A stretch of 64,000 nt of DNA from Thermoplasmatales archaeon E-plasma (lineage in GTDB: Archaea > Thermoplasmatota > Thermoplasmata > Thermoplasmatales > Thermoplasmataceae), in the NCBI GenBank assembly GCA_000496135.1, contig KI542674.1:372001-436000 (forward strand), in the 5' to 3' direction. The position numbers and the translations under genes are program-made. Shown here piece by piece: positions 27,706-35,766 of the stretch. The stretch's first letter is position 1. Each line of letters begins with the position of its first letter. The notes beneath the pieces were generated by a model. The model did not search any database, had not been told where the DNA came from, and worked only from the letters and a program-made list of their open reading frames with translations.

Positions 27706-28293
27706 ATGCCTGATCGCAGGGATTCATACTACTGGAAGGCAAAGGAAAATAATTTCAGTAGCAGGGCCGCTTTCAAGCTGATTGATATCCTAAATAAGTT
27801 TTATTTATCCATTGAAGACTGTAGTGTTCTTGAAATAGGCTCCAATCCCGGGGGTTGGGCCGAAGTAATTTCCATGAATAACCCATCTTTTCATATTGCA
27901 GTTGATATCAAGAAGGAACAGTCAGAACCACAATATATTTTCATCAGAGGTGATATTTCAAGGGATTCCACATGGGACAGCATCGTATCCACAATGGATG
28001 AAAATGGAATACGTACTTTCGACCTTGTTCTTTCTGATGCCATGACGAATACTTCCGGCAACAGCGATGTGGATCATTCCTCATCATATCTCATCTGCAA
28101 CAAAATAATGGAAAAGGGTATTCCGTTGCTAAGCAGAGGGGGGAGTATAATTGTAAAGCAGTTCCAGGGTGATCTGACTCAGTCCTTCATTGAGAACTGG
28201 TCTCATTATTTCAGGAGGGCAAGCATAACAAAACCTGCTTCTTCACGACAGGCCAGTAGAGAAATTTACATTGTTTTCAAATCGCTTATTTAG
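27706..28293 (+). CDS. rlmE: 23S rRNA 2'-O-methyltransferase RlmE (FtsJ/RrmJ family)
   Basis: 195-residue SAM methyltransferase that methylates the ribose of a uridine in the 23S rRNA A loop. The K-D-K-E catalytic tetrad is present: Lys24 in 'SSRAAFKL', Asp in 'DLVLSDAMTN', Lys in 'IIVKQFQGD' and Glu in 'ASREIYIVF'. The SAM loop reads 'EIGSNPGGWAEVI', with Asn-Pro where the family has Ala-Pro. Directly abuts gcvH (TAG ATG); its 3' end overlaps the convergent following gene by 8 bp. Confidence 0.93.
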   Translation: MPDRRDSYYWKAKENNFSSRAAFKLIDILNKFYLSIEDCSVLEIGSNPGGWAEVISMNNPSFHIAVDIKKEQSEPQYIFIRGDISRDSTWDSIVSTMDENGIRTFDLVLSDAMTNTSGNSDVDHSSSYLICNKIMEKGIPLLSRGGSIIVKQFQGDLTQSFIENWSHYFRRASITKPASSRQASREIYIVFKSLI

Positions 28294-28933
28294 AAACAAA
28301 TCCTAACTCTGTCAGTTTTTGTAAGGTCTGTCCATAAAATTCATATTCTATAATGATTGCTATTCTTGAATCCTTGATATCGTTGACTTCTTTTGCGATG
28401 TTTTCCAGTATGGTCTCTATTCGGAAATCGTCCATTTTCTTGTTTCCCTTGTTTTTATCCATCTCATTCTTCCATGACAGGACAAAATCCTCCGGATTAT
28501 CTTCATTGAAGGATTTTTTCATGATACGCTTTTTTCTCATGATATAACTGACCATGTTTCCGGTTGTAAATGTCTCTGAATATTTGCTTCCAAAATCATC
28601 CTCGTCCGCATCCACGCCCTTTGCAGGAATTTCTCTGCTCACCGAATACCTTATGGCTTCTATATAGATTGGAGGTGGTACCATTACCTCGCCAAATCTT
28701 GAGAGAAGTGTGCCGTAGATAATTTCATAATCGTTAAGATCCAGTTCAAATGGATCTTTAATAAATTTTGTAAGTCCCTCCACTTCGCCCGGGCTGATGC
28801 CAATCAGCATAATTTGTGGAATGAATTCATAGAGCTTATCTTTAAGCTCATCTCCATCTGAAATTAAACCCTTAATGCCTCCAATGAGAAGCACTTCACT
28901 TTTATCTTTATTTGTTAAATTCACATATTTCAT
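28286..28933 (-). CDS. Conserved archaeal protein of unknown function, partner of the COG1395-type regulator
   Basis: 215 residues, not confidently assigned. The N-terminal 'SEVLLIGGIKGLISDGD' and 'QIMLIGISPGEVEGL' resemble the first strands of a TraB/GumN-like fold, a weak likeness only. The middle contains 'VPPPIYIEAIRYS' and a charged linker; the C-terminus 'IIEYEFYGQTLQKLTELGF' is helical. Its start overlaps the stop of the upstream HTH regulator by 4 bp, so the two are translated together and probably act in one process. Confidence 0.6.
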   Translation of the reverse strand: MKYVNLTNKDKSEVLLIGGIKGLISDGDELKDKLYEFIPQIMLIGISPGEVEGLTKFIKDPFELDLNDYEIIYGTLLSRFGEVMVPPPIYIEAIRYSVSREIPAKGVDADEDDFGSKYSETFTTGNMVSYIMRKKRIMKKSFNEDNPEDFVLSWKNEMDKNKGNKKMDDFRIETILENIAKEVNDIKDSRIAIIIEYEFYGQTLQKLTELGFVSK

Positions 28934-29880
28934 GAATGAATCCTTGTTCTGCTAACAACTCTTAAAAATTCATCATGATCTGAAATTTCAGAAAGTTTTT
29001 TTGCCGTTATGACTGAGCATCCTCCAACTGTTTCTTTTGTTGTATCCTGTCTGCTTACCAGAAGAGGGAATTTTTCCATAAGATCTGAAATGTTTTTAAT
29101 GGCAAGAATTCTTTCCCTGTTCATCGCCAAATCCTCAAACAGACCCATCAAAAAAAGACTTTCTTTTATATTGTCCCTGGCAAGTGCATTGAATGGAGCT
29201 TTCCGTATCAGATTCATATCCAGTCCGATTTTAATCATATTTGTGTAAATATCGAATAAGAATTCATCTTCCGGCTTCTCCGGTTCATCTTCCTTTGTGT
29301 TGGTATATTCTGAAATGTCTATTCTCCTGCTGATATCTTCTTTTAGAATTCTAGTTAATTTTTGAAAGACTTCAAGTGTAGCGGAATTCCCTGATTCATA
29401 TAAGGAGATGGATCTGCGTGAAGTACCAATACTCATGGAAACATTACCAATAGACAGCCTCGAGCGGGATCTTGCCTCCTGCATTTTCTTACCATCAAGA
29501 GAGACATAATAACCTCCTGGTCCAGCGTAAACCAGTGGCTTTTCGCCATTTACATAATTGTGGAATGTCTCTGTTGACATAATTGGAATTGAATGCCTGA
29601 AATAAACGATACCATCCTCAAGAAAACCGTTTCCGGCTCTTTCACCAATTAGCAGCACTGCTGAACCCAGCATTTTACCGATTCTTGAAATTTCAATGGC
29701 ATTCTCTATTCTGAATGGATCCACATTGTAAAGGACTTTAATGACATATGACTCATTCTCCCTTCTCGCAATAAGATCAAAGGAGGATAATCCGTCCAGA
29801 TCACAGGCTGATAAGGAGAAACCAGATTCCCTGAGGAATCTGCCCGTATACTCAATCATTCCTTTCCTGTAATCATCCAT
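28930..29880 (-). CDS. Putative HTH-type transcriptional regulator (COG1395 family)
   Basis: About 316 residues. An N-terminal domain of about 130 residues with a restriction-enzyme-like look ('FDLIARRENESYVIKVL') is followed by a Cro/C1 helix-turn-helix: 'GGYYVSLDGKKMQEARSRS' then 'LSIGNVSMSIGTSRRSISLYESG' region (about residues 145-180), diagnostic of the archaeal COG1395 family. The C-terminal third is helical. The frame is open to a TTG at 29895, but a GATATAAT box at 29904-29911 sits about 26 bp before the ATG at 29880, so the shorter start is used. Confidence 0.85.
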   Translation of the reverse strand: MDDYRKGMIEYTGRFLRESGFSLSACDLDGLSSFDLIARRENESYVIKVLYNVDPFRIENAIEISRIGKMLGSAVLLIGERAGNGFLEDGIVYFRHSIPIMSTETFHNYVNGEKPLVYAGPGGYYVSLDGKKMQEARSRSRLSIGNVSMSIGTSRRSISLYESGNSATLEVFQKLTRILKEDISRRIDISEYTNTKEDEPEKPEDEFLFDIYTNMIKIGLDMNLIRKAPFNALARDNIKESLFLMGLFEDLAMNRERILAIKNISDLMEKFPLLVSRQDTTKETVGGCSVITAKKLSEISDHDEFLRVVSRTRIHS

Positions 29881-29917
29881 ATTCCATACAAACAATTACA
29901 TAGATATAATCGTTTCG

Positions 29918-32807: not shown

Positions 32808-34253
32808 TTAATTTATCTCTGTCAGTTTGATGATTGGCCACCCTTCCTTGTCCTTTTCAATATTCATTACAAAAAGTTTGTTTGTACCTGAGGAAACCAG
32901 AATAGATCCTGACACTTCAGAAAAGTGTATGGTGAGTCCGGAATAATGACTTAATTTCTCATAATATTCATTATCAGCCACTATGACAACTATACCAGTA
33001 ATTCTAATTTCATTAATTATATTGATAAGCTCTCCTATGAAATTTGGTCCATATGTAAATGATAGAAAATCTGTTGAAAAAATGTATATGTTAGGCCTTA
33101 CCGAGGAGGACATGAAAAAATCTATGACCTCGTTTGGGAAATCGGCAAACATACTCTTACCCTCCAGATTAATAACATATGGATTTGAACGTTTTGTCCT
33201 TTCAGCGGTGATGTAATGCTTCAATAAATCTGATTCCACCACTGAGACAAGCATCCTGGATGTTTCATAGCTGCTGGAAGTAACATCTATAACACCCCTG
33301 CCCTCAGAAATGGTTTGTTTTATGAGATTGTTTTTGAAAAGATTTACTGCATTATCCATAATCTCAGATATATTTTTCCTGTGTAAAATAACAACTGTTC
33401 CCAGAGGTACTTCATCTGCTTTTCCACCTGTTAGTGGTGTAAATTCCTTGTTTCCCAAAGGTACTTCATACTGCTTGATTTGCTTTATTTCCTGTTTTTT
33501 CAGTATCTTCTTTGGATACTCAAATTCAGGTTGCGGGAAAACGTTGAACCTCCCATCTTTTAGAGAATAAAGAAATGTTGGATTGGAGCCTATGGGGAGA
33601 CCTCTGAATTTTTCAATTCTCATGGTTCTCACCAGGTAGTCATTCATGATTTTGTAGTCTAGACTCATTACTCCATCAGCGTAATACTCCAACTGTGCAT
33701 TTCCGGTGTTTTCCAAAATGACCACAAGCCCTACTCCTGAATGTTCAACAAGATCATTCTGAAGCACTGAGAATAAGATACCCTCATCAATGCCATATTT
33801 CTGAGCAAGGGCCTCAATGGAGTCAAGAATTATAATTGGATTTGTACCTGCATTCTCTTCCACAAAGGAATAAATCGCATTAATTTCCGGGATAACCTCC
33901 TGAATATTGAATATGAGACCACTTGAGGATGAATTAACACGTTTTTCCTCAATCATCAGCTCCAGTTTTTTCAGTGAATCGGTGGTGACTTTCGAAAAAT
34001 CTTCTTTGAATTCTATAGAATCCTTGTTAGATCTATATGATACTTCATCAATAAAACCGAAAACCTCCTTCAGGGGATCGTCGCTGAACCTTGAGGAGAG
34101 ATAGTGAACTGGATTTTCTTTGTAGACCATTCCAGTAAATTCAAGAGCAAAAGTTGTTTTTCCAGAACCTGGTTTTCCTTTTACCACAAGAGATTTTCCG
34201 TATTTCTGATTGAAAAATTCAGAAAATAAACCAAAAACTTTGTTATCTGACAT
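32808..34253 (-). CDS. GvpD-like RecA-superfamily ATPase
   Basis: 481 residues. Residues about 1-240 form a RecA/KaiC-like ATPase: Walker A 'VKGKPGSGKTTFALEF' (about 24-39) and a Walker-B-like 'PIIILDSIEALAQKYG' (about 140-155). The second half resembles a degenerate ATPase domain without Walker motifs ('GTVVILHRKNISEIMDNAV', 'PNIYIFSTDFLSFTYGP'), the layout of GvpD-family proteins. No gas-vesicle genes are present, so a gas-vesicle role is unlikely; in other archaea such ATPases act in regulation. The DUF835 gene upstream ends 7 bp before its start, so the two form an operon. Confidence 0.75.
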   Translation of the reverse strand: MSDNKVFGLFSEFFNQKYGKSLVVKGKPGSGKTTFALEFTGMVYKENPVHYLSSRFSDDPLKEVFGFIDEVSYRSNKDSIEFKEDFSKVTTDSLKKLELMIEEKRVNSSSSGLIFNIQEVIPEINAIYSFVEENAGTNPIIILDSIEALAQKYGIDEGILFSVLQNDLVEHSGVGLVVILENTGNAQLEYYADGVMSLDYKIMNDYLVRTMRIEKFRGLPIGSNPTFLYSLKDGRFNVFPQPEFEYPKKILKKQEIKQIKQYEVPLGNKEFTPLTGGKADEVPLGTVVILHRKNISEIMDNAVNLFKNNLIKQTISEGRGVIDVTSSSYETSRMLVSVVESDLLKHYITAERTKRSNPYVINLEGKSMFADFPNEVIDFFMSSSVRPNIYIFSTDFLSFTYGPNFIGELINIINEIRITGIVVIVADNEYYEKLSHYSGLTIHFSEVSGSILVSSGTNKLFVMNIEKDKEGWPIIKLTEIN

Positions 34254-34260
34254 TAGGCAC

Positions 34261-35133
34261 CTATTTGTTTAGATCTCTCACCGTTTCGATTTTCCATTCT
34301 TCGGAGAATCTCGTAATCATACCATATTGAATCTTTTCCATTGCGTTCTTGTCTAATACCATTATCAAATATAGATTTCTTTCTATAATCGCACTCTTCA
34401 ACTGCTCAAATGTCCTTGCTACCTCAAAGAATGAATGATAGATCATAAGAAGATCGAAAATATCTATAAATATTATATTTGCCCCATCATCCGTTATTTT
34501 TTTCTGAATCGTCTCAGTTATAAAGGAGAGATTTGCTGGCCTGTTTCTTCCAGCTCCTATACTGTCTGTGACCCAGATGAAGTTTTCAATATTGAGGACT
34601 TCCGGTATTTCCATTCTGAAATTATTCCTTGAAACAACCAGAATTTTTTCTTTGTTTATATTGTCTGAAAATAAAAGAGAAAGGAAAAGCTTGGTCTTTT
34701 CCGGCTCCGTATTGTATATAACGCCTGGATACAGTCCATTCTTTGCAAGAAATATGCTTGTATTGTTAATAGCCCGAAGCTTCCTTACATTACTATCGGT
34801 TAAAGCGAGCCGAAGTGTTGTTCTCATCTCTTCGAGATCCTTAGTTTTAAGGACAATGTTTTCTGAGCTGTACTTAATGTAATCCTCCAGTTCAATTTCT
34901 TTATCCATGAAAATTATGAGATGATAACTTCTTTGATCAAGAATCAGAAAATCTTTAAGATCAGCATCAACAGGCTTTGTTAAATATATTATTAATGTGG
35001 TAGCCTTTCCATCTATGATTGCGGACTCATCAAATTCCTTTGTGACCTTGTATGGAATGCCCAATGGTTTCATGAGTTCATCCAAAATAGTACCATGGCT
35101 CCCATCTTGATCATACAAAATTATCATTTTCAC
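34261..35133 (-). CDS. DUF835-domain protein with receiver-like N-terminus
   Basis: 290 residues. The N-terminal 115 residues have a receiver-like alternating pattern ('MIILYDQDGSHGTILDELM', 'YHLIIFMDKEIELEDYI'), but the phosphoacceptor Asp is not certain. The C-terminal half matches DUF835: 'LYPGVIYNTEPEKTKLF', 'ILVVSRNNF', 'NIIFIDIFDLLMIYHSF' and 'LYLIMVLDKNAMEKIQ', a RecA-like fold without a P-loop. DUF835 proteins in Thermoplasmata and methanogens commonly accompany signalling domains. It is the first gene of a two-gene operon with the GvpD-like ATPase; a TTTAAATA box lies about 25 bp before the ATG. Confidence 0.72.
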   Translation of the reverse strand: MKMIILYDQDGSHGTILDELMKPLGIPYKVTKEFDESAIIDGKATTLIIYLTKPVDADLKDFLILDQRSYHLIIFMDKEIELEDYIKYSSENIVLKTKDLEEMRTTLRLALTDSNVRKLRAINNTSIFLAKNGLYPGVIYNTEPEKTKLFLSLLFSDNINKEKILVVSRNNFRMEIPEVLNIENFIWVTDSIGAGRNRPANLSFITETIQKKITDDGANIIFIDIFDLLMIYHSFFEVARTFEQLKSAIIERNLYLIMVLDKNAMEKIQYGMITRFSEEWKIETVRDLNK

Positions 35134-35319
35134 TTAAAGTATTAAGTTATTATTTAAATTTTCTTCCATAGAATTTGATCTTTTCTTCGTATGTACATTT
35201 TCCTGCAAGTTTTTCGAATTAATTGTTCCCATTCATTAAGGCTGGATTCTATTCAAATTTAGCTAAAGCAACGATTTACGATGACAAACTATTATAATTG
35301 TGCAAATATAATCCTCATA

Positions 35320-35766
35320 ATGAACGCACTTCTTCAAAGTATTACAGGTGGATATTCAAAAATAAAATTTCTCAGATTTACAATTCTAAGTTTTGCAATC
35401 ATAGACGCAGCCGCGCACTTGTATGCTTCACCCTCTTCATATCCATACGTTACATTCTGGCTGGAGATTGAAGTTGCCGCGTTCATAGTTATAGGAATAG
35501 TATTCCTTTTAGGATTGAAAATTTGGTATCTTCCCTCTGTATTGTTCACGGCGTTTAACCTGATGATCTATCTTCTGTCAGGGATAGTTGCCCTTCCACC
35601 CATCTCTCCGACTGCACTATCGGGCCATATTCAGTTTAGCAGTTATTCCTTCGGAAGGGCCTTCTCGATGATCGCATGGATATATATTATTGTGGTAGGT
35701 TCAGTTTCAATTAAAATAGATAAGGGCTCAAGATTGAACGATTTACTGAAAGATGACAAAACTTGA
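35320..35766 (+). CDS. Small four-helix membrane protein of unknown function
   Basis: About 148 residues with four hydrophobic segments ('FTILSFAIIDAAAHLYA', 'AAFIVIGIVFLLGLKIWYL', 'LFTAFNLMIYLLSGIVAL', 'MIAWIYIIVVGSVSI'). No family recognised. The frame is open from an ATG at 35281, but a TATAAT box at 35293-35298 lies inside that extension and is 25 bp before the ATG at 35320, which is therefore preferred as a leaderless start. Stands alone between divergent and downstream genes. Confidence 0.6.
   Translation: MNALLQSITGGYSKIKFLRFTILSFAIIDAAAHLYASPSSYPYVTFWLEIEVAAFIVIGIVFLLGLKIWYLPSVLFTAFNLMIYLLSGIVALPPISPTALSGHIQFSSYSFGRAFSMIAWIYIIVVGSVSIKIDKGSRLNDLLKDDKT

Follow-up and report, generated by a model that had tools for sequence, protein, structure and literature searches.

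A GvpD-like ATPase and a receiver-like DUF835 protein form a conserved gene pair that co-occurs with pilus and archaellum genes in Thermoplasmatales

In the genome of Thermoplasmatales archaeon E-plasma, a gene for a GvpD-like ATPase (G) is preceded by a gene for a protein that joins a receiver-like and a DUF835 domain (D). The pair co-occurs and is co-lost with archaellum and pilus genes, the usual signalling is missing, and in a sister family operon links connect the module to pilus and archaellin genes. Because of this co-occurrence, co-loss and missing signalling, D and G are proposed as a filament control. We lean towards the view that they would form one regulatory unit controlling surface filaments of the type IV pilus type, in which D would specialize the switch for the archaellum. 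Thermoplasmatales are wall-less acidophiles that make unusual filaments (PMC12448462), and no description of archaellum or pilus control in this group was found in the literature searched.

The gene pair and its two proteins

The window, that is the whole stretch of 64,000 nucleotides that was analysed, comes from a genome of 1.66 Mb (8 contigs, 96% complete) with one copy of G and one of D; metagenome assemblies have made the source genus known as a lineage of Thermoplasmata. Both open reading frames are on the minus strand, 7 bp apart, with D upstream (window 32808-34253 and 34261-35133). The features are as follows.

32808..34253, minus strand: G, GvpD-like two-domain KaiC-family ATPase of 481 amino acids (Pfam; single copy in the genome)
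32814..33350, minus strand: C-terminal domain of G, residues 302-480, no P-loop, GvpD basic region 2 family (Pfam match)
33600..33611, minus strand: K-F-R-G of G, residues 215-218, the KaiC/GvpD K-x-R-G motif (alignment)
33618..34226, minus strand: N-terminal P-loop domain of G, residues 10-212 (Pfam match)
33819..33836, minus strand: Walker B of G, IIILDS, residues 140-145 (sequence comparison among G proteins)
34089..34097, minus strand: S53-S54-R55 of G, arginine replacing the catalytic glutamate of KaiC (alignments)
34152..34178, minus strand: Walker A of G, GKPGSGKTT, residues 26-34 (G26-T34; conserved among sampled G proteins)
34261..35133, minus strand: D, receiver-like domain plus DUF835, 290 amino acids (open reading frame call, Pfam, alignment)
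34309..34674, minus strand: DUF835 (inactivated KaiC/RecA-like) domain of D, residues 154-275 (Pfam)
34798..35133, minus strand: receiver-like domain of D, residues 1-112 (model topology, Foldseek, alignment)
35150..35159, minus strand: putative TATA-like element, about 25 nt ahead of the D start codon ATG (from sequence only)

The start of D is probably the ATG at 35127 (residue 3) rather than the GTG at 35133, because many orthologues in the family begin there. The sequence-only reading had described a KaiC/GvpD-type ATPase 7 bp from a protein with receiver-like and DUF835 domains, and this is borne out by the coordinates and the Pfam matches, the receiver part being a low-confidence model.

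The G protein matches GvpD_P-loop (E 1.1e-27, 97.6 bits, residues 10-212) and GvpD_bR2 (E 2.3e-13, 50.6 bits, residues 302-480), both above the curated cut-offs and in the same order as in GvpD, as well as KaiC (E 1.2e-10). The P-loop, Walker B and K-x-R-G motifs of G are all intact, and they are conserved. Where KaiC has its catalytic glutamate, the sampled G proteins of the window type carry an arginine (within S-S-R in the protein of the window). The corresponding residues are S-T-R in Halobacterium GvpD and S-S-Q in the ArlH of E-plasma itself, and in family f5 a second G paralogue, which is more distant, mostly has glutamate or lysine there. Because Arg55 replaces the catalytic glutamate, G is best described as ATP-binding, its hydrolysis being uncertain. 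G also differs from KaiC clock proteins, which have this glutamate in the P-loop domain and two live ATPase domains, in that its C-terminal domain has no P-loop. The earlier description of one live and one degenerate domain is to be qualified accordingly, since with Arg55 a live ATPase is not assured.

GvpD, from the gas-vesicle clusters of haloarchaea, shares with G the Pfam domains and their order, the P-loop, the arginine in place of the catalytic glutamate and a homologous C-terminal domain up to its end (PKITLTEMV versus PIIKLTEIN). GvpD binds and removes the activator GvpE, for which its P-loop is required (PMC4390858). However, the arginine triplet of its basic region 2 (494RRR496 in Hfx. 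mediterranei), which is important in GvpD, has no counterpart in G, where the matching region, EYYEKLSHYSG, is not basic. The genes predicted within about 6 kb of the pair encode, among others, HemB, an M61 peptidase, QueD/QueC and malate dehydrogenase (Mdh); as the sequence-only reading had observed, no gvp gene is among them, and neither gvpE nor a gas-vesicle cluster is found beside G, in contrast to H. salinarum with its gvpDE. A role of the pair in gas vesicles was rejected since both the gvp genes nearby and the RRR motif are absent. G further differs from GvpD in its partner, a receiver-like/DUF835 protein, and in its co-occurrence with pili and archaella. The hemB gene, which often lies downstream, was rejected as a functional operon partner, since a small gene on the opposite strand is frequently found in between and the synteny with mdh, queCD and hemB is general. 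Two other observations concern the surroundings. A divergent membrane-protein gene at window 35281-35766 (plus strand), seen only in the genus of the window, has its upstream region in common with D. At window 28286-29895 (minus strand) the gene for a 215-aa protein without a Pfam match overlaps that of an HTH_3-type protein by 4 nt; this is another conserved uncharacterized pair, also present in genus g12 and family f5 (L077).

In D, residues 154-275 match DUF835 (E 8.5e-31; 107 bits versus a curated cut-off of 33.1), and the core of this domain is strongly conserved, e.g. NFIWVTDSIGAQRNRPVNL. Profile comparison revealed no significant similarity of DUF835 to either half of G, so that a descent of D from G is unsupported. 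No Pfam match was obtained for the N-terminal part of D. The predicted structure gives its 112 residues the beta-alpha topology of a receiver at low confidence (pLDDT 53 for the whole model, about 72 for residues 1-50), and in Foldseek this N-terminal model matches receiver domains, pseudo-receivers included, with a target TM of about 0.6. The full-length model, which is of low confidence, matches KaiC weakly. D does not have the properties of a canonical two-component response regulator: the phospho-acceptor aspartate of its receiver-like domain is not conserved among the aligned orthologues, and no canonical receiver domain was detected in the 77 genomes of the window's family (controls positive). 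CheW was likewise detected in none of these 77 genomes (controls positive). As both CheW and canonical receivers are absent, the archaellated members of the family appear to be without a Che pathway, and the pseudo-receiver of D may be the only receiver-like domain.

Conservation of the pair and co-loss with filament genes

The family of the window (f1) was represented by 77 genomes from 19 genera. DUF835 was found in 24 of the 77 genomes, with exactly one gene in each; in all 24, D and G share a strand, with D immediately upstream, and D never occurs without G. G is present without D in seven genera (g2, g3, g5, g10, g12, g14 and g15, among them putative Thermoplasma), and four genera have neither gene. 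Two sister families that belong to the taxonomic order of f1, namely f5 and f6, have the pair as well, in other gene surroundings. In 23 loci of the main type, sampled from the three families, gene order and strand were constant and the gap was between -34 and +12 nt, which is why the pairing of D and G is not due to chance. In many genera G keeps one syntenic place beside the housekeeping genes mdh, queCD and hemB. Absence of co-occurrence in relatives had been named beforehand as a possible refutation of a two-gene module; for D the outcome was favourable, with G directly downstream in 24/24, but G alone in seven genera implies that the module is not an obligate pair. In genus g7 (L070 8226-10399, plus strand) D and G are both split into several frames, which may reflect joint decay or poor assembly of this genome (50% complete). 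Outside the order (genomes G117-G149), DUF835 resides in open reading frames of 1300-1800 aa, with up to 15 DUF835 genes per genome versus 0-1 in f1.

The distribution of the pair follows that of archaellum or pilus genes, as would apply to a regulator of these filaments. Genes for the T2SSF platform of pili and archaella (TadC/FlaJ/PilC-type) are present in 15 f1 genera, all of which have G; the four without any T2SSF protein (g9, g13, g18 and g19) are the same four that are without G. Among the 35 near-complete genomes, 22 have both G and T2SSF and 13 have neither. Archaellins (PF01917) occur in nine f1 genera, and D is present in eight of these and in none of the ten archaellin-negative genera; the archaellin-positive genera of f5 also have the D-G pair. 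A putative Cuniculiplasma divulgatum genome contains G and pilus genes and is devoid of archaellin and D. This agrees with the filament types seen by cryoEM, which has shown pili in Cuniculiplasma divulgatum and archaella in Oxyplasma (PMC12448462). There are three exceptions: putative Thermoplasma has archaellin and G without D, f6 has the pair with no archaellin detected (genome 80% complete), and genus g21 has pilus genes without G. The pair is about 95 kb or more away from the arl locus in the E-plasma genome and more than 800 kb away in genomes G010 and G013. Because of these distances a single deletion cannot explain the co-loss. Within f1 the pair adjoins no pilus gene, the sole exception being genus g4 (G006), where an archaellin gene (L069, G006:C55, 6957-7562, minus strand) lies 4.6 kb upstream of D-G, beyond mdh and queCD.

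On an RpoB tree of 60 genomes (a single gene, with traits coded per genus and few events) G and T2SSF were lost together in three separate places, namely the g9/g18/g19 clade, g13 and g20. Of 5 independent contrasts for D, 3-5 showed a joint change with archaellin and none a change in the opposite sense; g1 and g12, which are sister genera, are unlike each other in both traits. The independent events are few, with 3-5 well-supported contrasts and sign tests of p 0.06-0.25. In Pagel-type tests with 60 taxa the dependent model was preferred for D and archaellin (LR 22.3, p 1.8e-4) and for G and T2SSF (LR 18.9, p 8e-4). With 55 taxa, after removal of five incomplete or long-branch genomes, the LR was 23.2 and 16.3, respectively, and none of 60 simulations under independence reached either value. 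The distribution is one of repeated parallel losses on this tree.

Operons of the sister family

In f5 (putatively Aciduliprofundum-like) the operon has the order D-G-wHTH-x-wHTH-divergent DUF835-KaiC. The very divergent DUF835 protein at its end (E 0.0065; L086 8265-9492, plus strand) overlaps the start of the KaiC gene, which means that the pairing of an ATPase with DUF835 occurs twice within one operon. Members of the same wHTH family are also encoded as a divergent pair next to an archaellin gene (L185, L186 and L189), and a genome that is more distant has this family in its archaellum locus (L194). The second G paralogue of f5 is followed by a canonical receiver protein. In L080 it is transcribed away from an operon of type IV pilus genes (T2SSE, T2SSF, T2SSF, T2SSE), to which it is divergent, and in L185 and L192 an archaellin-like gene is nearby. 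Genes for wHTH proteins adjoin G also in f10, f19, f22, f8 and f14. In f1, which gave only weak generic matches, the wHTH family of the f5 operon is absent and has been lost; a wHTH partner for D-G in f1 was accordingly rejected.

A proposed control of surface filaments

In the mechanism that we propose, G would be an ATP-binding switch of the KaiC/GvpD type, probably a ring, whose state depends on the nucleotide. Like GvpD it would bind a partner and alter the amount or activity of this partner, which would be either a transcription factor or a component of filament assembly. D would serve as an adaptor of which the pseudo-receiver takes an input other than phosphotransfer and the dead RecA-like DUF835 domain docks on G, and the addition of D to G would specialize the switch for the archaellum. 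What the proposal adds by inference is the physical contact between D and G, the partner that receives the output, the signal, and the direction in which control runs. Parts of the scheme have precedents in GvpD, ArlH and CirA. ArlH, a KaiC-like protein, is reported to bind ATP without hydrolysing it (PMC8978795), and the KaiC-like CirA affects motility in Haloferax (PMC13286277); both are, like G, KaiC-like proteins and are tied to the control or assembly of the archaellum. Unlike G, no DUF835 partner has been described for either, and ArlH is encoded within the arl operon, in the E-plasma genome by a separate single-domain gene (L190 8348-9025).

KaiC-like ATPases have been proposed as archaeal signal hubs (Makarova, Galperin and Koonin, 2017, as related in PMC5847659 and PMC8978795) and, as far as these accounts describe them, such systems resemble D-G in that a KaiC-family ATPase is combined with a receiver-type domain and with a KaiC homologue that is inactivated. 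An association of KaiC families with pilus loci has also been noted (PMC4858521), although the published data name other arCOG families than the GvpD-like subfamily of G. REC-DUF835 proteins, which have the domain order of D, are listed for Methanomicrobia and Thermoplasmata as response regulators with an inactivated KaiC (Galperin et al., 2018, PMC5847659). D differs from them in that its receiver is degenerate and below Pfam detection, in a family devoid of canonical receivers. In the literature searched there was no account of a GvpD-like subfamily with a fixed DUF835 partner or of its co-loss with filaments. The best reading is that D-G is a new variant of archaeal KaiC-type signalling. 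The suggestion of an uncharacterized regulatory-type system is upheld as regards the conserved module and the missing link to gas vesicles, whereas it is not wholly new in view of the published REC-DUF835 proteins and KaiC hubs; the association with pili and archaella had not been part of it.

A more far-reaching version of the proposal, which we regard as doubtful, is that in archaellated acidophilic Thermoplasmatales the archaellum would receive its sensory input from D-G, a switch of ATPase and pseudo-ATPase that is fed through a phosphorylation-independent pseudo-receiver and replaces control of the CheA-CheY type. It is similarly doubtful that the pair is a general switch, for stress, growth phase or metabolism, and that its coincidence with filaments reflects lifestyle, lineages that lose filaments also shedding regulators. 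The position of G beside housekeeping genes, the small number of independent losses and the pilus genes of g21 without G would fit such a switch. It is harder to reconcile with D tracking archaellins specifically and not pili generally, with the difference between the sister genera g1 and g12 in both traits, and with the f5 operons, in which pilus and archaellin genes are linked to G paralogues and to the wHTH family.

Alternatively, the G ring together with D might act after assembly on the motor of the archaellum or pilus, like ArlH or CheF/ArlCDE, and replace the missing chemotaxis input. Archaellated members without CheW and canonical receivers, the ATP-binding switch ArlH as the motor's own KaiC-like protein, and the lack of a DNA-binding gene beside the pair in f1 point in this direction. 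We nevertheless consider it improbable, as the f5 module is encoded with winged-helix regulators, the characterized relative GvpD acts via a transcription activator, and G is retained where pili alone, and not archaella, remain. That D and G are merely co-transcribed, with products that do not bind and D a decaying relic, would explain why D is missing from seven genera that keep G. This is very unlikely given that order and gap are kept over three families with different flanks, that the core of D is strongly conserved, and that D never outlives G in f1.

With a control of surface filaments by D-G as the favoured reading, the annotations 'gas vesicle' and 'unknown function' of G and D can be replaced by that of a testable candidate regulator, and DUF835 gains a concrete partner and context. 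The results also suggest that gas-vesicle GvpD may belong, as a single branch, to a broader family of regulators of surface filaments.
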